This document shows positions 13,994-54,517 of a stretch of DNA of 64,000 bases, piece after piece; the stretch's first letter is position 1; each line of letters opens with the position of its first letter. The notes under the pieces were generated by a model. It made no database searches, was not told where the DNA came from, and worked only from the letters and a program-made list of their open reading frames with translations. The position numbers were made by a program, and so were the translations under genes. Source of the stretch: Diphasiastrum complanatum. Its lineage: Eukaryota; Streptophyta; Lycopodiopsida; Lycopodiales; Lycopodiaceae. The stretch lies in contig CM055111.1 of assembly GCA_029204225.1 (NCBI GenBank), positions 13,866,477-13,930,476 of the forward strand. Direction: 5' to 3'.

Positions 13994-15787
13994 ATGGCAT
14001 CCATAAGTCCTATCTTTTGGATTCTAGTGATAGATTGAACTCTTCAAATTATTTAATTTGGAAGTTAAGAATGGAATCCATCCTTATCATGCAAGATTTG
14101 ATGGATATTGTGAATGGAGAGGAAGATGAGCCAATCCATCCACAAGAAGCAACTAAATACAAGAGAAGGTGCAAGCTTGCACTCCATCCATTGTATTAAG
14201 ATGAATATTGCAAATGATTTGCTCAAAGAAGTAGGAGCATGTACCTCAGCCCAAGAGGCTTGGGAGACTCTTCAAAAGATCTATGAGTCCAAGGACACCT
14301 CAAGGTTACTTTCCCTCAAGAACCAAGTTCTTCAATGCTTCCAAGGGAGGAGTGAGAGTGGACATCAACTTGTTTTGAGAATAAAAGATTTGAACAAAGA
14401 GCTTACTTATGTTGGTGAATCTATTAAAGAGAGTGACCTTGTGCAAATAGTTTTGAATGGCTTATGTAGTGATTTTACTAACCTTGTCCAAAGTTATGCC
14501 ATCATGGAAAACTTGCCTACAATTGAAGACCTTCAAAGTGTGTTTATGGCCGAGGAGAGTAGGAAGGCTCATATCAAATCAAGGATGGAGAGGCTCTCCA
14601 TCAATGATGGTGATGACAAAGCCTTATTTTTCAAGAGCAAAGGCAAAGCAAAGACCAAGGGAGGAGCATTCAAAAGGGAGCAAGCAAAGGATGGAGATCA
14701 AGGAGGATCCACATCCTCATCATCACAAGTCACGCCCAAGAAGGACAAATCTAAGATAAAGTGCTACTATTGTAGCAAGATGGGGCATTATGCCTCGGAA
14801 TGCTTCAAGAGGAAGAAAGATCAAAGCCAAGCCAACATTGGACAAGAGGAGGAAGAGAGCTATCACGAGGACTCACTCATGATGTCAACCTTTTCATCAT
14901 CAAATGTCAAAGGTGAAGATCCTCTGTGGATAGATAGTGGGGCTAGCTCCCACATGTCGGGTAAAAGGGAGTATTTTTCTCAACTCACACCTTATGTAGG
15001 ACATATAAAGTCCATTTTTACAACAAATGATCATGAATGTAAAGCTGAAGGTGTGGGATCCATTCCCTTATGCTTAGGATCTTCCAAGAATACTAAGATA
15101 GATGGTGTTCTCTTCATTCCTAGCATCACTAAGAATTTGCTTAGTGTTGGCCAACTTTTAGATCATGGTTTCATTGTGGAGTTCTCTACTAATGTGTGCA
15201 ACATCAAGAAAAGTGGGATGATCATAGCAAGGGGAACAAAGTTTGGGAGGTTATTTAAGCTTGATGCTTTTGTCAATCCTAACCAAGTTGTGATGGTAGC
15301 CGAGGAGACCAAGATGACCACATTTGACTTGTGGCACAAGAGGCTTGGTCACATCAACACCAAGTCCATGGAGGCTATGTGCAAGGAGGAGCTTGCTCTA
15401 GGCCTTCCAATATCCATGGAAAAGGAGGAAAAGGCTTGTGAAGCATGTGCTTTGGCTAAAGCACATAGGTTGCCTTTCTCTAACATTATCACTAAGACCA
15501 CTCACCCTCTTAAGTTGATTCATTTGGATGTACATTTTGCTAGCACAAAGAGCAATGGTAGAGCCACAATGTTTGTGATCTTGAATGATGAATCCTCTAA
15601 GAATCATATTGGGAAAGATATGGTTGAGATCAAGGAGGAGCCTGATCAAGAGGAGGAGCAAAATCCGAGAGCTTCAACTATTCCAAGGAGAGCCACAAGA
15701 GCAAAGATGGAGCTATCAATGCTTATTTTTGTGGACAAGGAAAGGAAAGCTGGAAAGGGGGGGTACATTTTGTACTTCATCTGCTGA
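13994..15787 (+). pseudogene. Copia gag-protease with truncated integrase
   Basis: Gag-protease polyprotein. The gag region contains NYLIWKLRMES and a UBN2-like body. A CCHC zinc knuckle, CYYCSKMGHYASEC, lies at 14762-14803. The protease active site is WIDSGASSHM (about 14930). A GAG-pre-integrase block (LWHKRLGHINTKSMEAM, about 15331) and the integrase zinc Cys pair CEACALAKAHRLPF follow. The integrase then stops after its first catalytic Asp (HLDV, about 15524) and jumps to the acidic spacer that normally precedes reverse transcriptase. A 4-base duplication of CCAT near 14185 shifts the gag frame; the related copy at 8.5 kb lacks it. From 14114 the frame is open for 557 codons. The initial ATG (13994) is also out of frame with the body. 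Confidence 0.85.
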
Positions 15788-25839: not shown

Positions 25840-27060
25840 TTGTTGTTTGCAACATTTTGGTACTTTTCGATCTACTAGCATTTAACTGTTTGGTGCTTTT
25901 TAATATTTTGGAACTTTTGGTACTTGTGATATTTCAAGTGTTTTTAAAACTGTTGTTTTGTACTTTGAGACTTGCGGTAATTTTTGTACGACGGATTATT
26001 TTATCTGTGGTACTTTGGTATTTTGAAAAGCTTACAAACAGCTATTCAACGTGCAATGTGCAACAACAAGAAAATTATGTCCGACTGCATTTTGACATTT
26101 TTTGAAACCTAAGACTACCAAAGTTTGATACTATTGGTACTTGTTGGTTTGTTTTTTTGTTTTAAGATTGAAGTCTTGAAGTCGTTTGCCACTGATTCGT
26201 ACCAATGAAGCAATATTTGTATTGAATGTTTGTAATGAAGCAATATTTGTATTGAATGTTTGAATATTTGTATTGGTACTACTGGAACTTATCGTGTAAC
26301 AATTTTGATACAACAGACTAACAAAATAGGTTCTTTTATAACTTGTGTCTCATTTTCATTCTAAAATCATCCAAATTGGTCTACTGAGATTTATAATGTG
26401 TACCATTTTTATTTTAGAATCTACAGCATTTGGTTCTATTTTTTAAAAATTTCGTCGTATTTGCAGTTTGCACATGTCTTTTTGGTACCGCTTTAGTGTT
26501 GTTACACCAATTGATAGTATTACTCCAGTAGTCGCAGGGTACTAATTTTACAAATTTTGTACTATTTTGGTACTATATTTGTGTTGGTAAAACTCTTGAA
26601 TACAAAAGAATGGTACTACAATAACTTATCGCATACCAATTTTGATCCTCCTAACTACCAAATTAGGTTATTTTATAGTAAGTGTCTTATTTTTATTTTA
26701 AAATCTACCAAGTAGGTACTATTTAGACTTCTCGTGACCATATTTTACGCATAAAAACATTTGTACTATTTTTGTAATGTTTACGTGTTTCTGAAACTTT
26801 TGAGTACCAAAGATTGGTACTATTTGAACCTATCGTGTAACAATTTTGATCCTCCAGACTACCAATTAAGATTCTTGTATGTTTAGTACTTTGGTACTAT
26901 AAGATGCTTTGGTACTTTAGTACTACCTGTATATGATGCTTTGGAACTACCTACATGTACTTTCTACCGAGCTGCACCAATGTCCGAGTACTAATTTTAC
27001 AAATTTTCTACTGTTTTGGCACTATTTTTGTGTTGGTAAAACTCTTTCATTAGAGCCCTT
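25840..27060. repeat. AT-rich region with diverged long-period repeats
   Basis: Three diverged copies of a block with the order GGTACTA.., TATCG.(G)TA.CAATTTTGAT, GACTA(C)CAA and a T-rich tail begin near 26275, 26613 and 26815. The whole stretch is full of TTTGGTACT. No credible coding. Confidence 0.55.
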
Positions 27061-27449
27061 TTTGGACTCAAAAAGGGCCTCTTACTTGCCTAAACAAGTT
27101 TTCTAATCATAATTAATTTAGTGCTAATCAATCCTACGTGGCACCTTTACCTTGGGTTACCATACAAGGTGAGCAAGAGTTAAGGCCTAAATGTAGGTCT
27201 CATTTTCATAGACTATTGTAGGTTATTTGCATAGACTATAATAGGCAACTAATAGGTAGTTTACAAATTACAACTAGAGTAGGGTTAGTATAGGACGACC
27301 TTTCATTGTCCTAACTACAATAGGACCCTAGGGATGGAAACTAGTATATGCCTAATAAAGCTTATATCATGGTTAGTTCACACAAGGTTGATTAAGGTGT
27401 GTTTCTACTGTTCTACATAGATTCTTTTGGGAAATTCGACATCTTCAAG
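27061..27449. other. Leader region of the 27-35 kb gene block
   Basis: Non-coding. At its left edge an inverted repeat (GAGCCCTTTTT...AAAAAGGGCCTC, about 27055-27085) could form a short stem, which may mark an element end. No TATA box is obvious before the first gene. Confidence 0.3.
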
Positions 27450-30140
27450 ATGACAACCAAGTATCACTTACATGTGAAGTTAGAGAAGGATTATGCGACC
27501 ACCAAAGCTGCATGGGGTGTTAACTTAAATCCGTATGACATGCATTGTTGGAGATTAGAAGGGAAAAAACATATTGACCTATGGGTAAGAGGTGATTTAT
27601 ACCCTCATAATCCACTGGTAGATGCTCCTCCTAAATTTTCTGATGTACATAGTTTGTTAAGGTTCGTTGGGGATGGTCGGAATGGACTGCTTGGCTATTG
27701 TCAACCAATGGATTCTCGAAGAATTCAAGCTGAGACATTGGCAAATACGGCAAACATTCATATATTGAGTATGAATGACAATTTAAAGTCATTGCATGGA
27801 ATAAATATGAAATTGGAGCAGGAGATAAATGGTTTGAAAATAGAGCTTGCCAGTTTTGTCGCAAAAATTGAAGAATTGCAATCTTCAATCAGTATATTTC
27901 AGAGAACAATATATGGCTTACAACGAAAGCGTAGAGTCTCGATGGATCAGCAAGCAGAAAATGAAAACACTAAGAGACACAAACTAGAAGCTTTGGCACC
28001 AGGTGGTGGTGCCAGTAAAAGACGTATGAGGGACACAAAAGAGTTCTTGAAAAAGACGGTTGGAAAAGATTTTAGTGCCGAAAAATACATGAAACATTTT
28101 TTGAAGGGTAAAGATTTGATTAAGATTGTGGAAGATGAAACAAGTGATTCAATTCGCTTGAGAATTGCAAAAAAGCTAGTCGACAAGTTCAAGCCAAATC
28201 CAAATGTTAAAGAGATGGTGTACGCATGTGACCAAGGAGGTGTGAGTCGCAAGGGGTATAGAGCTTTGAAGAAGTATATGAAACGCTCTGACAAAAATGG
28301 GTTAAAACGCCATCAAATAATTCCTACTTATAAACTTGTCGAATCCGCCAAATGAGAATGCAATTCGATATTGCTCTCTGAATTAGGAGAGTTTCAACAT
28401 ATTGAGGATTCTTTTATAGTAATCAATAAGAAGAAAGGACCTCCGAGATGTTTTCGTTATTATCAAGGCAATAATATATTCTTAGATCTGGAAAAGGTCC
28501 AAGCGATGATGATCCGACATTACAAAGTTAGAACAAATGGTAAGAACATTTATTGTGAATTTCAGTTTTCAATTGTATGCTTTTCTTCAACTAATATGTT
28601 TTAGTAATGAAATTTCTGTTTTACAGATTGGGGAGGTAAAGTTATATTTGTTATTAAGTTGGACAAAGCAGAAATCGTAAAAGGGCGTAAACTTGAACGT
28701 GTCACAATCACCTTGATGAATCGTGAATTGCAACAGTGTGGCGGAAGTTATTGTAAAGAATTTAGCGTGCAATCCGAAAATCACATATGGTGGATAGCTG
28801 CATTTGAAGTTCTTAAGGAGTCTCACGACGTACTGGAGTGGCTATTTGAAAAATGCAGTATATCTAAGATAATACATGCACAAAATGAAGGCAAATTGCT
28901 CAATGTTGAAGGAGAAAGCTTTGCTGTAGAATGGCACCTACCTGCTGATTTGAAGACTTTGAAATGCATGTACGGTTGTGGTCTCTGTGCAAATGCAAAG
29001 AATTTTTGTATATATTGTATGTTTGAATCTGGGCGGAACAAAAGTATTTTAAATTGCAACCAACGTCTTCCATCAAATAGGCACAATCTAGACAAAGCTT
29101 GGAGTCCTGTGTTGAACATTCCTCTCGAAAGAGTCCATTTTTGCACAATGCATGGTGAATTACGAATACTGGACAAATTATTATTTTTGCATTGTTGTTA
29201 CGCATGGAACATGCAGCCCAAATCAAGAGCAGATGTTAGCATTAGAAATCTAGAGATAATTTTATCCGATATGGGATTGCACGGGGGCCACGTGAGTCTT
29301 ACCAAAGACGTTGAGATGAGTGGAAAAACGCAAGATGTTCCAGCAAAAGTTTCAATGGGTGGTGCGAAAGCGAGACACCTATTGTCAAATCATACTGCAC
29401 GTGAAAGCAGTGTTAAATGGGGTACTGGAGGAAAATATGTCAATGCACAACAAATATTGGCTCAGATCCTCGCATCTCAAGTACACGTGCTAAGGTTTGG
29501 CAAGTATTTAATGCCTTGTCACAAACTATCAACAAAAAAATTGTGAGAGATGAAGATTTGAATAGATACGCAAGAGAAGTCAAAACATTTACTGAATTGA
29601 TGATCGATGCATGGGGAGAAACACACATAACTCACTATATGGTATGTGTGTCTCATATTTTTTACTTTCATATTTATGTATTTGTAAAGATTTAAACTAA
29701 TACAAATTTTCTATGAACAACACATCTTCTATGCTCATGGACCTTGGTTTATGAAAACCTATGGATCATTAGCTATTTGGAATACGCAAGGCATGGAAAC
29801 GAGTCATTACAGGGCAAAGGCTGCGTATTTAAAAAATTCACGGCATGGCGGAGGAAAGGGTCTTAGCAATGCATTGGTTGAGATATTCCAATGGTTTTAC
29901 AGAGGAGTTTTGGGCCGAGGACACTTTCAAAACACAAGAACTGAAGAGTTGTGTTCAATGATCTCCAATTCAAATTCAGTCAGAAAGACAGCATGGTAAT
30001 CCTCTAATGCTAGAACAAGGCATCAAGAATGGAGGATGTTTAGAGTCCGAGTTGGAAAGAGGTGGATGCCGAGGACACCAACATCCAATGTTTTGGAAAA
30101 CAGCGCTAGAGAAACTACAGAAACTGATGAGATGAAATAG
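27450..30140 (+). pseudogene. Large zinc-finger transposase-like protein with introns
   Basis: From ATG 27450 the frame runs to an in-frame TGA at 28353-28355 and continues open to a clean splice: donor GTAAG at 28540, acceptor ACAG ending at 28626, frame preserved. Exon 2 runs to a frame change near 29450 and then to donor GTATGT near 29642. A last part (about 29710-29997) continues after an in-frame TAA. Layout: an N-terminal region with a coiled-coil-like stretch and a Lys-rich segment, a KGRKLERVTITLM core block, a zinc-type cluster CMYGCGLCANAKNFCIYC, then VHFCTMHGELRILDKLL, and a late GPWFMKTYGSLAIWNTQGM with HYRAKAAYLKNSRHGG. This order resembles an uncharacterised, widespread eukaryotic family of large transposon-like proteins that I cannot name. 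Catalytic residues cannot be assigned from sequence alone. Three or four single lesions make this copy probably non-functional. Confidence 0.5.
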
Positions 30141-30273
30141 AAACAATTTATGCTGAACTGTAATTTGAATATTCCTTTGTGATAAATATTACTGTCGAAT
30201 TGGATTGTTGTTGTAAATAGAATTTATTTTATTTGGTTTTATAGTAATATCTATTTTTGGATACACGTCCCTC

Positions 30274-30280
30274 TATATAA
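30274..30280 (+). promoter_or_regulatory. TATA box of the second rightward gene
   Basis: TATATAA in the context CTATATAAGAGTG, 120 bp before the ATG at 30400. The leftward H3-like gene has a near-identical context, CTATATAAGGGTG. Confidence 0.55.
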
Positions 30281-30399
30281 GAGTGGGGGTTTTCATTTTG
30301 TTGTCACTTCTTGCTTTGTTGAAATTTGTTTCCTCGTAATTTAGCTTGTCTTGTTCAATTATATTACTAGTTTGTTGGTCAATTAGTGTTCTTAGTTGC

Positions 30400-31876
30400 A
30401 TGACAATGTCGTGCCCTAAAATAGAGTTGGCCAATCTGCTAGCCCCCACAGAGTTTTTAGATCAATTAGATCGTATTTATTGTATGTTTACCGGTAGAAT
30501 AGACACGCTTGCCACTCTACGGGCTAATGCGGATGCATTCACGTACGTGAGTGAGTATATAGATGAAACTTTGAAGCCTTATGCCATACAAATTTCTGGC
30601 TCAACTATCATGTGGATTCCGTATAACTTGCTTAGTTATATATGGAAAGGAGATAGACCCTTTATCGCTCGTCTCAACAGATTTATTAGTCACTTGGATA
30701 ACGATCATTACTTGGAGCTGACGAAGGATCAGCTGAAAACTTTTGATCTTGAAAGTGTAGGAAAAAAGTTTCTATCCGGTGAGATTACTATTATTTTTTT
30801 GCTTAATGAGTTTCCAGCGACTGTGGCCAGCAACAAACACAATCCTAGTGAGCAGGTGAACGAGATGAACGACCTGCGTGAAGAGGAAGATTTATCTGCG
30901 AGCACGAAGCAATCTTGGCTGCGCAAGAGGCAACAGGTGCATCCACATCAGCGGAGCCAGAAGATACAGATGAGTTCGATGATGTCGTGCTTCGAATCCA
31001 TGGCCTTGCTCCAATCATCATTGATGGGTAGGAGTATGTGTTCATGCATGACTTGCAACATATTCTCGGCTTGCGAGAAGATGAGATGCTGGCAACATTG
31101 GTAAATTTGCAGAATGGCAGTTCCACTTTCGACCACACCCAGCCCGACGACATGTATGAGAAGCTGATCGGGCATGACACGGACACCACCGAGCAAGCAC
31201 TGGCAAGGGTGCTTTGCCAATTGAAAACGCTTCAACCACCACCAGTTCAAACGAGGCCATTCGAGGTACTCGAAGGGAAAACTACTGACGTGAAGTACAA
31301 AGGCAAAAGAATTAACCTTGCGCAAACCGAAGACATTGATGAAGGCACCGAGGCAAGTCTGACCCAACAATTCAACTTGCATGTGTTTGTTATGTTTTTT
31401 TGTCTTCATTATACTCATTTTGCAATAATTTGAACCAAATGCAGGATGCAGTGGAGCTTGATGCATTTGCAATGCGAAGGGGTGGCTCTCGGGAGAAAGT
31501 TGAAGCAGGAACTCTGGACAGGTCTATGTCCCACTACATTGGGAGCTTGCCCAACAACTTTATTTTCTGCTTCAGCAACAAGTACAGCCCAGATGGATAG
31601 ACAGAGCTTCTTAAATGCAAAGCACTCTCCAAGGACATTGGTGAGCTGGACATGTCACCGTCAGCGCCAAAGGCTTACTGTGTCCTCCAAAAAGCCGTTT
31701 TGAATGATTTTTGCCCTGGATTCGAGACCTGGCTCATTCTCTCGGGATTAATTGGCCCTTATGAGGATGAGGGAGATGCTCCTAAATTAGCATTAGAAAT
31801 TTTAAAACCAGTACTGTCATCAGAGAAGCAATTAGAGAAGCTGAAGTCCTCTTTGAAGGAAATGGATCAAATGTGA
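30400..31876 (+). pseudogene. Unknown two-exon protein of the 27-35 kb block
   Basis: I do not recognise this protein. ATG 30400 opens a frame through MTMSCPKIELANLLAP, FLDQLDRIYCMF and a Glu-rich stretch. Near 30890-30910 the frame shifts to one containing FDDVVLRIHGLAPIIIDG, an in-frame TAG at 31028, then EYVFMHDLQHILGLRED and a stretch ending near 31370. An acceptor (AAATGCAG, ending 31445) begins a second exon, DAVELDAFAMRRGG to KEMDQM, with one TAG near 31598 and a natural stop at 31874-31876. The protein is acidic, mixed-charge and soluble-looking, with no transmembrane segment. It is read in the same direction as the transposase-like gene and converges on the H3-like gene across the 70-bp array. 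Confidence 0.45.
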
Positions 31877-32005
31877 ATAAAGATTTTGTCCTTTTTTTCT
31901 TGTGGACTCTCCTAATTCTCTGTTGTCATTATATGATGTGCTAATATATTGAATTTAGAATTTAATTTTATTTCTGATAAAGATTTCTCCTCCTTTTTTT
32001 GCGTG

Positions 32006-32230
32006 ACGTGATTTTCACGCCAGGGCGCGACCAGCGCCCGTTTGACCAGGTCAAACATCCCCTGGTCGTGCCTTGGCGTGATTTTCATGCTAGGGCGCGA
32101 CCAGGGCCCGTTTGACCAGGTCAAACGTCCCCTGGTCGCGCCTTGGCGTGATTTTCACGCCAGGACGTGATCAGAGCCCGTTTGACCTGGTCAAACGGGC
32201 CCTGGTCGTGCCTGGCGTGATTTTCAGGCC
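32006..32230. repeat. 70-bp palindromic tandem array between convergent genes
   Basis: Three full units and the start of a fourth (starts near 32006, 32076, 32146 and 32215; period 70, 70, 69). Each unit has three nested palindromes: CGTGATTTTCACG, GTTTGACCAGGTCAAAC, and GGCGCGACCAG...CTGGTCGCGCC around the second. The array is far richer in G+C than its flanks. It lies between the 3' ends of the gene ending at 31876 and the leftward gene ending at 32483. It could act as a terminator, an insulator or a protein-binding array. Confidence 0.9.
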
Positions 32231-32482
32231 AAGACATGGAAACCTATCTCATCTACAACATGGTTAAAGAAACTACCATTCTCATAGTACTGAAAAATTT
32301 TAAATCACTGCATTCACATAGATGATACTAAAATTTTCAAATGACTGCATTCACATAAACAGTACTGAAATCAGATATCAAACTCAATCACAACAATTTG
32401 CATTCACACAACCTGAAATTCTGCAAGATACTTGACACCAAATCTTCAGTATATTATAAATAAAATCATGTACATGATATTT
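32231..32482. other. Intergenic spacer downstream of the H3-like gene
   Basis: AT-rich non-coding spacer with two near-identical blocks (ATTCACATA.A..TACT.AAAT, about 32308-32375). No gene. Confidence 0.4.
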
Positions 32483-33656
32483 TTAATTCCGCTCTCTCCT
32501 TAGCCTTCTAGCCAGGTGGAGATCCTTCGGGAGTATTGTGACTCTCTTCCCGTGCACTGCACACAAAAATGAGTCCTCAAAGAGCTGCGTTAGGTACATT
32601 TCTGCAGACTCCGGTATTGCGGACACTGCATCTGCTGTAACTTTGTTCCCCAAGGAAAATTCATCGACTATTTCTTTTACAAGCCTCACAAAAGGGGCCC
32701 TAGGGATCAAAAATTTTACGGACTTCTGATAGCTTCGTATATCCTGGAGCCACTTTGTGATCCTGTGCTTCCTACGCGGTCGAGGAGGTGGTGGCTGCAT
32801 CCTGCGGAGCTCCTTTCCAGCCCATGGTGCTGCACGAGGGGCCCGCCTATCCCTGCGACGCTCTACGGTCCTACTTGGCCAGCTACGGCGGAACTTGGAG
32901 GCGGTGAAGGTGGAGGTGGTGGAGGTGGTGGTGGTGGAGGTGGCGGTGGAGGCGGTGGGGGCGGAGGCAGTGGAGGTGGAGGAGGTGGAGGCGATGTTGG
33001 CGGTGTGGGCAGTGGTGATGGCTCCTGAGATGCAGAGTTCCGTCGCTTTGATGTAGACCCAGCCTTGCGAGGATTCTTTCTTTTTCGCTCGTGTGCTCCT
33101 CTCTCTGACCATCTATGGGTCGCCTTCTGCTTCATCCTTGTTGTGGTCGACATCGGGGTGCCCTCATCAGAACCACCCACCAGCAACGACATCATCGGAC
33201 CCATCACCGGGCTGTGACTTGGAGGTGACACGGTGGGTGTGGTGTCCCCCGATATGCCTAAATTTGATGTGTCCATGCCCATTGCTGGTGGAAATGGGTT
33301 GAAGAAAGAATCATTCAGAACCGGCAACTCACCCGATGCCGCAAGCTCCTCATCTAGGAACTTCATTGTTTCCTCCCGCTCAGTTGCCGTCGAGGAAGGG
33401 CATTTTCTCATGTTGACTGCTGCTGCTGCTGCTCAGTCTGGTCCTCCTGTGCAGTTGCTGTATGGGCCATGTCGTCCTCAGCTTCACGTTGAGTGGCCGG
33501 ATCTTCCTGAGATGCTATAGGGTTGCGACTCCTACTCCTGCTTCTGCTCTCCCGTCTCTCTCTCTCATCGAGGGTGGCTAGTGCATCCCTATGGAGCAAT
33601 GCACTCACTCGGGGATCTCTAGCCGTTTGTTTCGTCCGTGCCATTTCCTTTGACAT
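32483..33656 (-). pseudogene. Divergent histone H3-like protein with long linker
   Basis: The reverse-strand gene begins MSKEMARTKQTARDPRV; the second ATG (33642-33644) gives the exact H3 tail tip, with Asp at position 9 and Pro at position 10 in place of Lys9 and Ser10. A Ser/Arg/Gln linker, an Arg/Lys-rich region and a long polyproline run follow. The C-terminal ~88 residues (about 32750-32486) are a histone fold collinear with H3 and gap-free: DIRSYQKS, PFVRLVKEIVDEF, AEMYLTQLFED, LCAVHGKRVTILPKD, LARRLRRERN. About half the fold positions match canonical H3 by eye. Loop 1 has canonical length, unlike CENH3. The reading frame changes at a CAG run near 33410 and again inside the GGT/CCA repeat near 32870-33000. 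These could be indels or very short introns, so the copy may be broken. A TATA box lies upstream. Confidence 0.8.
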
Positions 33657-33771
33657 TGGTTAGCCTTTGAAAACGTATCAGAGAACACGAGAGTTGAAAA
33701 ACAGAGAATTTAAAAAAATTGACACTCTGACACTCAAGGGATGAAGTGGAGAAATGAGGACCCAAGCACCC

Positions 33772-33778
33772 TTATATA
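33772..33778 (-). promoter_or_regulatory. TATA box of the H3-like gene
   Basis: Reverse-strand CTATATAAGGGTG, with TATATAA about 120 bp upstream of the first ATG. The same spacing and near-identical flanks occur at the TATA box of the rightward gene at 30274. Confidence 0.6.
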
Positions 33779-34168
33779 GTGAAGGGTTCTATTTTTAGTA
33801 AGTGCCCCTATAAAAGTTTTGGCATCTTTTCCAAATATAGTATGTTCTTGTCTAGGCTCATGAGTAAAAATCCTTGGACATCCACAAATGTAGTAACAGG
33901 CATATAAAATGTGACAACGCAAAAGTAATGTCAAAACGTAACCAAATATATTAGAATAGAGTCAAAACACAACCAACTAATTGTGTTTTCTATTTTCCAT
34001 TAGATTAAATCCTTTATTCCCATTGGACTCCTAATGTCCCTGTTTGTAAAAATGAAACACATTCATGATCTTTTTCGGCTCGTCTCCGTATCTGCAAAAC
34101 CAGACACAAAGTTAATAATCCTATATTTATTCAACATTATTATTTAAAATTCAGGAATCTGATGAAAA

Positions 34169-35374
34169 TTAGGGACTCACATTTTGTCCATTACGAGTGA
34201 AGACAAAATCTACTAGCACATCAACAAAAGTCAATCCAAGCATATGCCAAAGATCTTCTAGGCTGCACTCCTTATTTATATGAATTTCTCGTATTTCATC
34301 ATGGGGCAAATGTATGGATATCTCCACTTCTTGTTGATTCGTCTCCGCGTCCAGAGGGTCCCATCGGCCATGACCAAACTTATATCGCCTATAAATGAAA
34401 CTTAAGGAGCATGTTTGACGTGAAATATGATACCTTATGGTCATTGTTTCACAAGAGAGCTTACACCTTATTAAATCTCCTTTATGCTCCATTTCCTTTG
34501 AATCCCATGCGACAAATATGTTGTCCAACAATGATGATTCTGTTGCTTTCCATGCCCACATCGTGCTTGTTTCCCTAAAGGGGACCGCCTTAAATATGGC
34601 AACAAATACAGTGATCGGCACAAAGATGCTAGTGTAGACTCGTTTGGATCCGAATGTTGGCTTCATATTACCAATAATCTCTTTGAGAAGTTGCCTCTTC
34701 ATTAATTCAATAGTCAGTTGGTCAACATATGGCCACTCATGAGAATTGATCGCAGGCTCAGAAGTTGGTGCTAATTTGCCTTGGCCAAAGTTTTTTTTTT
34801 GGAACTTCGTACATGTGATCGTAAAAGAAAATGCCCATTTTGATCAGGGCAGAGGATGCCAACCCACCATATATTAGTTCTCCATATTTGGCGTGTATGG
34901 CGGAGAATTTTCCAGTGAAGGACTTCACGTTTTGCCAGTCGAAGCTATTTGAAGGAAAGACATCTGCACTAGGCATTAATGCAACATTATTATCCATTAC
35001 AATGACATAATAATAATTCAAACATAATAGTTAACACAAGAATAAAAGAGGTGAGACCTACAATGTGACTGTATGGTTCTATCAGCAACAGCCACATCCA
35101 ATAAAATATCTCGACGCATGTATACGTGTTGCACATTTGCAAGGTATTCGCCGTTTTGGTCGATCTTGAATTCGTGGATCCTTCCTTTCCAATGGTAGTC
35201 TTGGTTGTTTCGCTTCCTCTTTGCAACCTTGTGAGTTCCTTTGCCCGATGGTTGCATGTAAACCCAGTCAAAAGTTGAAAATGTATGGGGCACCCAATGC
35301 TCATTGGAATCTTTGATGTGTGCAACAATGGAAGCTAGTTGATTCTTGGGCTTCCTTGATTGAGTAGAGGCCAT
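34169..35374 (-). pseudogene. BAH-like domain protein, two exons
   Basis: ATG at 35372-35374 starts MASTQSRKPKNQ. Exon 1 (to about 35060) contains FDWVYMQPSGKG, WKGRIHEFKIDQNGEY, VQHVYMRRDIL and DRTIQSHC. The order 'DWVYm...I..i....G...v.v...R.D......R....SH' resembles a BAH domain, a chromatin-reader fold. The second exon starts after acceptor CTAGTGCAG near 34967 with DVFPSNSFDWQNVK, then GKFSAIHAKYGELIYGGL. An A10 homopolymer near 34790-34800 shifts the frame. The other frame continues with EWPYVDQLTIELMKRQLL and a ~170-residue tail ending at 34169. One lesion only. The BAH reading is by eye and moderate; the tail is unknown. Confidence 0.45.
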
Positions 35375-35476
35375 AATGGATGATGTAATGATAATGTAGG
35401 ATATGCAAAATAGTGTGTAGATCTTCAGATAAGGTGAACCAAAATAAAAAAAATAGAATATCTGTGGAGTATACAG

Positions 35477-35590
<114 letters not shown>

Positions 35591-35599
35591 CGTTTAGAG

Positions 35600-36150
35600 A
35601 GAGACTACAAAATGAGAGAGAGATGAGAGATACAAGCTTGTGAACATTCAAAATTTGAAATGAGGACTAGGCTCACTTAGGATAACGATGCTAGTAGATA
35701 GACAGGCTAGTTGATGCTAACTTGTAGGCATAGTTATTGCTTTATCTAGGGTTAATGTAGGGTTAATGTTAGAGGTGTACTTTGTGGGCCTACACTTGAT
35801 TTAATCTGCACCATTGAATTTGCCATGTCATATGGACCATTCCCTCGCACATAATGTATGTCAGAAACTCTACAAGTGCAGCTGAAAAGCCTTTATTTTT
35901 ACATATGAGACAATAAGCTACATGACAGAAAATGGGTATAATCAAAGGTGTCATTGGATGTGGTCAGACGGTGTGGCGTCCCAATTCAAAGCTCGAAGGT
36001 GTTTTTTCTTCATGGCCAAGTATATTTGTTGGGGATTCTCACTATCTATTATTATCACTCTGTAGTTTTCAGATTTGTTACTTCAGATGGATCGAATCCC
36101 ATTAGAGAATCAAAGTTTAGTCTAGAAAATCGAACCGATCCAGACAGCCT
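35600..36150. other. No gene seen
   Basis: Short non-coding segment between the gene block and the next copia relic. It contains a doubled GTAGGGTTAATGT motif (about 35750-35780) and nothing else notable. Confidence 0.35.
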
Positions 36151-45894: not shown

Positions 45895-46256
45895 CATTAG
45901 AAGAGTTCTAAATCCAAAAAAGATCATTTGTAAAGATTCTTTTTATATTTTTTTCTCATTTTTTTCTTACACATGGACCAATCAAAACACTCAAATTTGA
46001 AATCTACGTAACGTAACTTTTTGAGTCCACACTAAAAATGGCATAACTTTTTAGTGGTAAGTCCAAATTTAGCGGAGTTTGGTGCATTGGAAAAGCGCTC
46101 GACAAGGGATTTCCAATGATTTCTTACATGACATATTTTTGAGCTACAATTAAAAAGTTATGGCAAGTCAAAAGTATAATTGTTATAATATTTTAATAAT
46201 ATAAACTACATCTTGCACGAATTCTTAAAGGGTCTTTTTGGAGCTCAAAACTAATG
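45895..46256. mobile_element. MITE copy 1 (diverged ends)
   Basis: A 362-bp element homologous along its whole length to 54140-54517. Left end CATTAGAAGAGTTCTAAATCC; right end CTCAAAACTAATG. The right terminal repeat has lost the CTCCT bases kept in copy 2, and the left has one substitution. Non-coding. Confidence 0.8.
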
Positions 46257-49689: not shown

Positions 49690-52531
49690 ATGGCCTTGTT
49701 GGCCAACATAGAAGCTTCACACAAATTTTTGGAATCTTCGGAGGCAGTGGTTGGATCGTTGGATCTTTACCTGTCAATATGGTTCCTCAAGAATCTTTTC
49801 ATCCTCTACAACTCCCGGATTTCAATTCCTCTTGTTCGACGTGGAGAAAAGAGACCCGCTTCCCCTTCAGAGCATCCTTCTAGTGCTTCCCCTTCATGCG
49901 CGCGTCGTGAAGCCCACTGTGATGTTGCGGATTCCTTGCTTGTTTCCTCTGGCCTGGTGGTGCCATACTGTCCGCCCCATCTTCGCCACCAGCTTTCTTC
50001 CTCTTCTCGCCCCCGTGTTCTATGTGCAAGCTGTGGTCGCCTTTATGTGCAAGGTGCCGGTCTTTCTCGCCATCATAACGCTTGCTCTGCTTTTCGTCAA
50101 CAACTCGCATTAACCAATGTCGACCTTGCACCTCATCCTGCTCCCACTTCGCCACCTAACTCGGCTTGGACCTGGATTTGCCCCCTTGATATTTTGACCG
50201 TTTTTCACTTGGGTTTTCCTCGTCCTCGTCTTTATGCACACATTCCCTTTGCCTTGCGCTTAGATGTCCAGAGAGCTTTGTCCTTATCTTTGTCTCATAT
50301 GGCTTCCAACCCTTCTGATATTGCAGCTTGGCATGCCTTTTTGCTTTTCCCTCTCTGGTGTTTGCCTCTGCCTCCTCGGGGTGGTGATGCTGGTCATAGG
50401 GAAATTCGCAACAGGATTCATCGCTTTATGTCAGGAGATTGGAAAAATTTGCAAGAAGAGCATTTCCTTCGTTGTCAGGTGCTGCTCATGGGATTCGACT
50501 TCGGATGGTGTTTCTATACCCCCTATTCATCGTCGGTTGCGTCACAGTGTTTTACTTGGGCAAGTGGGTGAGTATTCTTGTGCAGCTCGTGCCTTAGCTC
50601 CTACAAGTCCAGCTACTCCTTCTGCTGCCACTCTTCAGGCTTTGGAGCTTCCTCATCCATTGATAATTGACTCCCTTCCCTCTTTTGTTGAGGACTTTGA
50701 ACCTGATTCCGATTTGCAACTCTCAGAATCTCATTTTCTTAATGCTTTTCTATGTAGCCCTCATCTGTCAATTGGGGTCCCTTCTAGTATGGTTTTCGAG
50801 CATCTTCGTGACTGTTTTTCTCCTGATGACTCTACTAGCGGGTTTGGTTTGCTCTTTCAAATTTGCTCTTTCGTAGCATGTGGCCGTATTCCTCTTTCTA
50901 TTGCTCGTATTCTTGGTGTTGCTCGTTTGATAGCCTTGGATAAGCCTGGCGGTGGATTGCGTCCCATTGCTGTTGGAGAGGTTTTATACAGATTGGTTTC
51001 TAGGGCTCTTGGTTTTCAGCTTCGTGACAGTTTTCATAACCACCCGTTTCCTCATCAGTTTGGTTGTGCTACTCCTGGCGGTTGCGAGACAATCGTACAT
51101 GCTTTGCGTGCTACCTTGGATCTTCATCCAGATTGGGTTGTCCTTCAAGTGGATGTTAAAAGTGCTTTCAATTCTGTTTCTCAAGGGGCGATTCTCCAAG
51201 AACTTCGTGCGGCTCATAGTCCTCTCACTCAGCTCATCCCGTTTGTTCGCTCTTTTTATTCCATGGATGCGCCTCTATATTTTAGTCATGCTTCTCGCTC
51301 AGGTGATGTTTCAGTTATCTCGTCTGCTGATGGTATCAGACAAGATGACCCCTTGGGTGGTGTTCTTTTTGCTTTGGCGCACTTTCGGGCATTGCATGCT
51401 TCTTCTGTTGCTTTTCCTTCTTGTTTGTTTCCCTCTATTTTTGATGACACACATATTGTGGGACCTACTAATGACGTCTTTTCGGCTTTCCCACATTTCT
51501 CTCAGCAACTTTCAGCTTTGGACCTCACTGTCAATCCCTCTAAGTGCGTTGCTTGGTGTCCTCAGGGCCTCCTTCCTGAGCTCCCTTTACCTACAGGTTT
51601 CAATACTTTGGTTGATGGGATTCGAGCGCTTGGTATTCCTATAGGTTTCTCGGATTTTGTGGCTTCCTCTTTGCGGGACACTTTGGCGCACATCTTCGTC
51701 ACACTAATTTGCTACCAAAAGCTTGGCAATGCTCAAGTTTCTCTAGGGATTCTCACTCAATGCTTCGTTCAACGGTCAAGTTATATTCTACGGTGTGTTC
51801 CTCCCTCTCCTGATGTTTTGGCTTTGCTATAGGATTTCGATAATACTTTATTAGATATTCTGGGTCGCTTGATGGGTTCAGAATCCTTTCGTATTCCCAA
51901 TGGTCAGTTCGTTAAGCGACAAGCCTCTCTTCCCGCTTCGTCCGGAGGTGTTGGTCTTTCTTGCACAACTTCTATTGCTCCAGCTGCTTTTATGGGAAGT
52001 TGGGCCCTTGTTGCCTCTGCACTTATCTCTCGGTTTCAGCAGGACAACAAGCCCATTCTTCTTGATTCAGTAGCTCATGTGGAAACATGCATTCTTCCTT
52101 TCCAACAACATCTTCGTGCGGCCAAGGATCTCATCCCTCCACCTGTGCGAGCTTCTTTGTCTCTCTTTGAGACTTTGTTTAGCCATCAGCGTGCTCATTT
52201 TCAAAAGTATCTTTTGGAGGGCTTCCACTCACATGCTTTCACTCAGCTTCTCAGTGATTCACCTTCCAATGAGACTCGGGCTCGCCTTCTGTCTTGTGCA
52301 GGCCCGGGTGCTGGTGCTTGGCTTGTTGCGCGCCCTATTGTTCCACAATTGCGCCTTTCTTCAAAGTTGTTTCTCACCGCTCTTCGGGTTAGGTTGGTTC
52401 TCCCTCATCCAGTGCTGGTTGGTTTGACAAAATGTTCCTGTAGTCACCTCGTTGATCCTATTGGTGGAGAGCGCACCGCGACTCATGATTCCATTCGTGA
52501 CGTATTGGCCTCTATTGCACATGAGTGCTAG
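49690..52531 (+). pseudogene. LINE-like reverse transcriptase, nearly complete
   Basis: Non-LTR-type polyprotein. The first frame (from ATG 49690) has a CASCGRLYVQGAGLSRHHNAC zinc-finger-like motif (about 50029-50092). Near 50480-50520 the frame shifts into a second one holding the reverse transcriptase. In order it has LDKPGGGLRPIAVGEVLYRL, HQFGCATPGGCE, VVLQVDVKSAFNSVS (first catalytic Asp), DGIRQDDPLGGVLFA, IFDDTHIVGP (the YxDD box with Ile for Tyr) and NPSKC.AWCPQG. An in-frame TAG at 51830-51832 interrupts it, and the same frame continues to 52531. The end has CSCSHLVDP and a Thr-His-Asp segment typical of the C-terminal zinc region, apparently shortened. An AATAAA signal is at 52648. 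I recall this RT style from seed-free plants. No endonuclease domain was recognised upstream. Confidence 0.75.
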
Positions 52532-54139: not shown

Positions 54140-54517
54140 CATTAGAGGAGTTCTAAATCCAAAAAAAATCCTTTGTAAAGATTCTTTTTATATTTTTTTT
54201 CAATTTTTTCTTACACATGGACCAATCAAAACACTCAAATTTGAAATCTACGTAACGTAACTTTTTGAGTTTACATTTTGATTCCACACTAAAAATGGCA
54301 TAACTTTTTAGTGGTAAGTCCGAATTTAGCGGAGTTTGGTGCATTGGAAAGCGCTCGACAAGGGCTTTCCAATGATATGTTAGATGACATGCTTTTGAGC
54401 CACGATTAAAAAGTTATGACAAGTCAAATGTATTAGTGTTATAATATTTTAATAATATAAACTACATCTTGCACGAATTCTTAAAGGATTTTTTTGGAGC
54501 TCAAAACTCCTCTAATG
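54140..54517. mobile_element. MITE copy 2, intact ends
   Basis: A 378-bp element beginning CATTAGAGGAGTT and ending AACTCCTCTAATG, a perfect 13-bp inverted repeat including any TA or TTA target duplication. It matches copy 1 (45895-46256) throughout, apart from a ~15-bp segment missing in copy 1 and small changes. The TA/TTA at the edges points to a Tc1/mariner- or PIF/Harbinger-type mover. Non-coding. Confidence 0.88.

Follow-up and report, generated by a model that had tools for sequence, protein, structure and literature searches.

Why should a plant DNA transposon carry a histone H3 of its own, and one that keeps Lys4 of the tail and lacks Lys9? The question is raised by a 64,000-bp stretch of the genome (1.74 Gb) of the clubmoss Diphasiastrum complanatum (the window; part of contig C20), in which a sequence-only reading had noticed a histone H3-like gene on the reverse strand. 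We found this gene to lie within a mobile element that is bounded by terminal inverted repeats (TIRs) and also encodes a transposase and a second gene (gene 2). The anatomy of the element and of the gene is hardly open to doubt. The full chain, in which a multi-gene DNA transposon family has an H3-like gene as one of its selected parts and is helped by it to resist silencing, with the window feature as one decayed copy of that gene, is in our judgement probable on balance.

Read on the reverse strand from 33656, one frame translates as MSKEMARTKQTARDPRV..., with GAT (Asp) as codon 9, and a second frame encodes the H3 fold down to 32486 (Pfam Histone, E 4.9e-28), the tail and the fold of the window copy lying in different frames. 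In alignments with solved H3 structures, which are also the best solved matches, the fold shows no gap from LQDIRSYQKS through the end of H3, and it is 54% identical to host H3. This likeness is far beyond chance, and a copy of a second subfamily, B (see below), matches the same Pfam family with an E value of 4e-27. The sequence-only reading had described exactly such a gene, with ARTKQTAR including Lys4 followed by Asp and with a fold collinear with H3, free of gaps and ending at the same residue, and both descriptions were borne out. The host H3 genes have an ordinary tail, with Lys9 and Lys27 in all eight that were translated (L001-L008). When the fold alone was used as the query, which places long relatives outside its reach, the closest proteins were three hypothetical D. 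complanatum proteins with 84-90% identity. Of 521 matches to the whole protein, the 120 listed cover at most 50% of the query and, judging from this coverage and from their names, are ordinary H3s or fusions of H3; this search scored the 7,988 candidates that share most words with the query, so that absence of longer relatives is not implied.

The gene is repeated throughout the genome. A histone search gave at least 153 matches, 13 at canonical score and 140 divergent, distributed over each of the contigs C1 to C23, and these counts are lower bounds, since 150 of 6,325 first-look candidates were scored. All 66 of the divergent matches that were translated, the window included, fit either the window-like fold (subfamily A) or the B fold, which is about 50% identical to it, and a single-copy host variant is thereby ruled out. 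Twenty 10-kb stretches contained 12 A copies, 7 B copies and one copy of subfamily F, and six fold subfamilies (A-F) were seen altogether. Two pairs of copies, L009/L018 and L015/L016, sit on different contigs or at different places, and the members of each pair have their outer flanks in common, which shows that each pair goes back to a single insertion, duplicated either as a segment or in the assembly. In a tree with H3 sequences and a CENH3, of a kind that the sequence-only reading had suggested, the transposon folds of the six subfamilies form one clade apart from host H3 (16 rows, 98/84), consistent with a single capture followed by diversification. With midpoint rooting, this clade falls on the side of one CENH3 and atypical grass H3s (25 rows, 98/90); the alignment has few columns and the branches are long, and any relation to CENH3 is tentative.

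Open copies clarify how the gene is built. In L035 (G000:C156), the H3-like gene stays open over 417 codons, beginning with PMSEEMARTKQTARDPRV and finishing with RLRRERN, and joins tail, linker and fold in a single frame. This uninterrupted frame shows that the breaks in the window copy are mutations rather than the introns that had been considered near 33410 and 32870-33000, and that all three parts come from a single gene; both introns and a chimera of two genes are ruled out. The linker of L035 is long and consists of Arg/Ser repeats, a Gln-rich part, the motif FLDEELAASGELP and then polyproline, in agreement with the proposal that a long linker replaces the rest of the tail. Look-alikes of FLDEELAASGELP were recognized by eye in subfamilies C, D and E. 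B-type frames are also open, with 331-332 codons in L014, L025, L026 and L028, so that the suggested search for other copies with intact frames was successful in both types; the B-type protein bears a C-terminal extension of about 200 residues, and the A-type protein the long linker. Within the fold, R83, H113, K115, R116, T118 and D123 are kept in all six aligned subfamily sequences and R69 in five of them, residues that we take to be the H3 positions meeting H4, the second H3 and DNA.

We then compared the tails of 29 copies, a sample drawn from copies with a high histone score, some of which are broken, a few within the tail itself. Lys9, counted from Ala1, was found in none of the 29, and Lys4 in 28. 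Position 9 is occupied by Asp in 22 tails, by Gly in three, and by Arg, Glu, Val and Ala in one each; that is, the Asp of the window is the prevailing residue rather than the rule, while the absence of Lys, on which the sequence-only reading had staked its interpretation, extends to the whole sample. The 16 A tails, from at most 14 insertions, all have Lys4, with Asp9 in 14 and Gly9 in two. The nine B tails mostly read MD(R/K)RKQTRRD and all have Lys4, with Asp9 in eight and Gly9 in one. The single C tail, MARTKQTGRRNP, has Arg9, the two E tails read MARTKQTAREP (Glu9) and MARTKQTTKVP (Val9), and the single F tail reads MARTESTARA (Glu4 and Ala9); no D tail was found in the stretches fetched. 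No ARKS motif is present in the six sequences checked, which cover only the fold side in C, D and E. With Lys9 in no tail and no ARKS at 9 or 27, the family does not belong to canonical H3 (H3.1/H3.3). Residue 9 varies by subfamily and yet was not Lys in any tail of the sample, which hints more at selection against Lys9 than at chance; as most subfamilies are represented by one tail or a few, this pattern is suggestive.

To what extent the gene is maintained can be judged from the changes among its copies. In 33 A folds, the ratio of nonsynonymous to synonymous changes (N:S) is 8:8 for changes shared by at least three copies, 14:6 for those in two copies and 44:16 for singletons, with 210:63 sites; in 26 B folds, the corresponding values are 21:29, 13:7, 46:14 and 225:63. 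By Fisher's test, shared changes differ from singletons with p 0.13 in A and 0.0004 in B, and from sites with p 0.03 in A and 6e-7 in B. This is the pattern expected if the fold is kept working in transposing lineages and drifts after insertion, for which B gives strong and A, taken alone, weak support. Between A, C, D and E, the proportion of synonymous differences (pS) is 0.86-1.00, which is saturated, and that of nonsynonymous differences (pN) is 0.20-0.33. Purifying selection together with synonymous saturation between subfamilies suggests that the elements need the gene, which we consider very likely. For other parts of the element, the signal is weaker or less clear: shared-change N/S per site is 0.51 in A gene 2, 0.41 in ORFx of A (an open reading frame, ORF, described below) and 0.81 in the portion compared of gene 2 in B, whose transposase offered too few copies for such a figure.

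The element itself is defined by its ends, and its features in the window are listed in the table below. The A inverted repeat, CATTAGGGCCCTTTTTGGACTCAAAAAGGGCCTCTTC, is perfect in L023 (8,850 bp) and nearly so in L017 (8,955 bp), B elements end in CATTAGAGGA..., and the B element of L026 together with its neighbour stretch measures 9,305 bp. Across the genome, the A repeat has 923 + 905 = 1,828 matches with up to 3 mismatches, compared with 0 for the reversed control; these matches are element ends, short non-autonomous copies included. With TIR-bounded copies and ends repeated genome-wide, carriage by a mobile element, raised as a condition in the sequence-only reading, is observed. Target-site duplications (TSDs) of at least 4 bp were found in none of eight two-ended copies (L009, L017, L023, L026, three fetched pairs and a 378-bp relative at window 54140-54517), matches of 3, 2, 1 and 1 bp being seen in four, which is odd for a cut-and-paste element. 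RAG-like (RAGL) and Transib TIRs begin with a heptamer like CACWRTG; the clubmoss ends start with CATTAG and show no such heptamer.

Features of the H3-like gene and of the transposon that carries it, in window coordinates
Feature	Positions	Strand	Basis
H3-like gene, broken in the window copy	32483..33656	-	Pfam and solved-H3 alignment; open counterpart in L035
Tail tip M-ARTKQTAR-D (Asp9 codon 33617-33615)	33615..33644	-	Frame translation
H3 histone fold including C-terminus, 91 codons	32486..32758	-	Pfam, solved-H3 alignment, identity to host H3
DNA transposon, A type (strand is that of the H3-like gene), one end truncated near 35849	27048..35849	-	Homology to other copies
TIR CATTAGAGCCCTTTTTGGACTCAAAAAGGGCCTCTT..., sole remaining end	27048..27084	+	1 mismatch in 30 at 27048
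Transposase gene, N-terminal part, ORF	27399..28355	+	By-eye likeness to N-terminal parts of P0058, P0060, P0063
Transposase core ORF, predicted RAG1/Transib-like fold	28659..29546	+	L017 orthologue modelled and compared; 360-codon alignment of the window copy
ORFx, two overlapping ORFs (30346-31104, 31038-31433), seen in A copies	30346..31433	+	ORF list, copy comparison
Gene 2, later exon, BAH-resembling	34172..34798	-	Copy comparison
Gene 2, first exon	35021..35344	-	Copy comparison

The predicted fold of the L017 transposase has RAG1 and Transib as its best matches, with an RNase H-like DDE core in the RAG1 arrangement. When searched as a profile, the transposase matched neither a RAG1 nor a Transib chain up to E 10; no Pfam family was found for its core. 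Its relatives P0058, P0060, P0063, P0085 and P0123, some of 550-613 residues, end soon after HITHYMV, as if an intron were located there; they make up a widespread eukaryotic transposase family, for which no Pfam entry was found. Carriage of the transposase by viruses was rejected, none of 29 profile pattern matches in viral contigs being confirmed. For gene 2, the full Pfam BAH profile gave E 0.16 with the exon-joined B protein and no match with A, profile comparison with BAH by hhalign gave a probability of 2% (E 0.023), and the model of the later exon has a predicted local distance difference test (pLDDT) value of 43. ORFx resembles by eye an ORF in the same place of B elements, but direct comparison of the two yielded no significant match; hence only the transposase, gene 2 and the H3-like gene are claimed as common to A and B.

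Several further observations concern the element and its surroundings. A tandem repeat with units of about 70 bp, partly self-complementary (TGGCGTGATTTTCACGCC...), lies at 32004-32238 between the stop of the H3-like gene and ORFx, and its copy number may vary, because the alignments with L015 and L016 break there. The A-type terminal repeat, for example at the ends of L023, is a near-palindrome (GGCCCTTTTTGGACTCAAAAAGGGCC), so that hairpins could form at both ends of an element. A long GA microsatellite is found at 35447-35594 near the truncated end, with a matching CT/GA run in the L017 and L023 elements. The 378-bp relative is a non-autonomous element with B-like CATTAGAGGAGTTC ends on both sides and no TSD (1-bp match), and at 45895 there is an additional end of the B-like CATTAGAAGAG kind, in which 6 of 30 positions are mismatched. 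Elsewhere in the window, a copia-like gag/integrase ORF (14114-15787) and a reverse-transcriptase-like ORF (50264-51832) were recognized by eye from their translations.

What, then, might the gene do for the element? Its tail keeps the active-chromatin end and is without both silencing sites, which favours silencing-resistant chromatin encoded by the element itself. The H3-like protein would pair with host H4 and would enter nucleosomes on or near the element, or compete there with host H3. The Lys4 end of its tail would be shown to the writers and readers of active chromatin, and neither ARKS site (Lys9, Lys27) would be offered to silencing methyltransferases, so that chromatin of the element may resist silencing. 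That such resistance is the reason for the gene is an appealing possibility, which we favour over a transpososome role and would place somewhat short of probable. The complete statement, that a plant transposon with a RAG1 fold encodes a selected H3 variant, with Lys4 kept, Lys9 variously replaced and Lys27 dropped, as anti-silencing chromatin, is more tentative still. Transposons are known to counter silencing through proteins by which methylation is removed or small RNAs are blocked; a dedicated histone, if real, would be a different strategy, altering the very residue on which the silencing mark is placed. In addition, the family represents a natural series of tails, in which Lys4 is kept and residue 9 is Asp, Glu, Arg, Val, Ala or Gly, and through which the role of Lys9 could be addressed.

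Several points weigh against silencing resistance and the selection on which it builds. The loss of Lys9 could be drift once the tail was freed from its normal constraint. The exact H3 N-terminus is not kept in B, which starts with MDRRK, and Lys4 is lost in the F tail. The tail of L089 (ARTKQTTKV) is ambiguous, in that its Lys8 is readable as Lys9 after the loss of one residue. Five codons upstream, A-type copies contain another ATG in the same frame (MSEEMARTKQ), which may bury the tail tip; translation has to start at the downstream ATG for ARTKQTAR to be exposed as the N-terminus. As to selection, the comparison of shared and single changes in A is not significant and is weak alone, the A transposase core shows no purifying signal (shared N/S per site 1.16 in 8 copies), and the duplicate pairs L009/L018 and L015/L016 were kept in the counts. 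Moreover, choosing copies for a high histone score biases against amino-acid changes, a bias that is probably modest because singletons are near-neutral.

Of the other explanations, the one that survives best is that the H3-like protein is a transpososome subunit, which works with the element's own transposase, for example by binding or bending the ends or by tethering the complex through its tail, and changes silencing little. The gene is kept beside the transposase and gene 2 in A and B over a long divergence, the added linker motif FLDEELAASGELP, with its look-alikes, could be a docking site, and RAG-type recombinases use a partner that reads Lys4-methylated H3, according to the part of PMC7204232 drawn on here. 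Against such a role, the retained residues for H3-H3, H4 and DNA contacts suit a nucleosome, no RAG2-like gene was recognized, and the fact that position 9 is not Lys is left unexplained; we regard it as rather unlikely. It is improbable that the gene is passive cargo, a host H3 that was captured and copied along without benefit to the transposon as in fungal hAT elements, since open frames, purifying selection and presence in several subfamilies of one clade speak against it, even though H3 capture has precedent (PMC3538342 and PMC6710886, in the parts used here) and many copies, that of the window among them, are broken. A poison or decoy histone, made to disturb the chromatin of the host at large (for instance, by occupying readers of Lys4 or chaperones of H3) rather than to package the element, could draw on the retained Lys4 tip and on the long charged and proline-rich additions, which could hinder nucleosome packing, but it would harm the host on which the element depends, and both its fold and its interface residues seem suited to assembly, making it quite improbable. 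A CENH3-like protein that steers insertions or segregation to centromeres is the most remote of these explanations, because the tree position that favours it comes from few columns and long branches, copies are spread over C1 to C23, and CENH3 is not known to have an ARTKQTAR tip.

Silencing resistance mediated by an element-encoded H3 can be set against systems already described. In the open-access literature searched, most subscription journals being outside its scope, no plant transposon-borne H3 was found, and none was discussed for the loss of Lys9. Relative to the canonical H3 of the host (L001-L008), the clubmoss protein shares the fold to its C-terminal end and, in A, tail residues 1-8, and differs in having no Lys9, no ARKS at 9 or 27, and a long linker (A) or the C-terminal extension (B). 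Regarding the transposase, RAG2 of mouse and sea urchin binds H3 methylated at Lys4, and the hosts of RAG-like and Transib elements named in the part of the source used here are animals and fungi (Martin, Vicari et al. 2020, PMC7204232). Compared with these elements, the present ones have CATTAG ends, no 5-bp TSD, no recognized kelch/PHD partner and a lycophyte host, and have, in a vascular plant, a transposase of predicted RAG1-like fold.

The nearest parallels come from fungi, as far as the parts of the two reports used here extend. In Pyrenophora tritici-repentis, a hAT transposon carries H3L, whose tail is altered by insertions and which fits neither H3 nor CenH3; its 26 copies are recent and differ little from one another, and transcripts are present (Manning et al. 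2013, PMC3538342). Both cases have an H3-like gene with an altered tail inside a DNA transposon; here, however, the transposase has a predicted RAG1/Transib-like rather than a hAT fold, copies are far more numerous and fall into six fold subfamilies, and the loss of Lys9 is a common feature, residue 9 of H3L lying outside the comparison. In Pseudocercospora fijiensis and its relatives, H3 was captured by hAT elements of about 9.5 kb with 8-bp TSDs and hundreds of copies, all of whose captured H3 copies were inactivated by repeat-induced point mutation (RIP) (Dhillon et al. 2019, PMC6710886). These elements likewise amplify H3 by a DNA transposon of similar size, about 9 kb, whereas the clubmoss family has open copies, signs of purifying selection and no TSD found, and with neither a hAT transposase nor an 8-bp TSD it does not belong to the hAT elements. 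Transposon-borne H3 is known from fungi; what is described here is a selected H3 variant without Lys9, in a RAG1-fold transposon family of a clubmoss.
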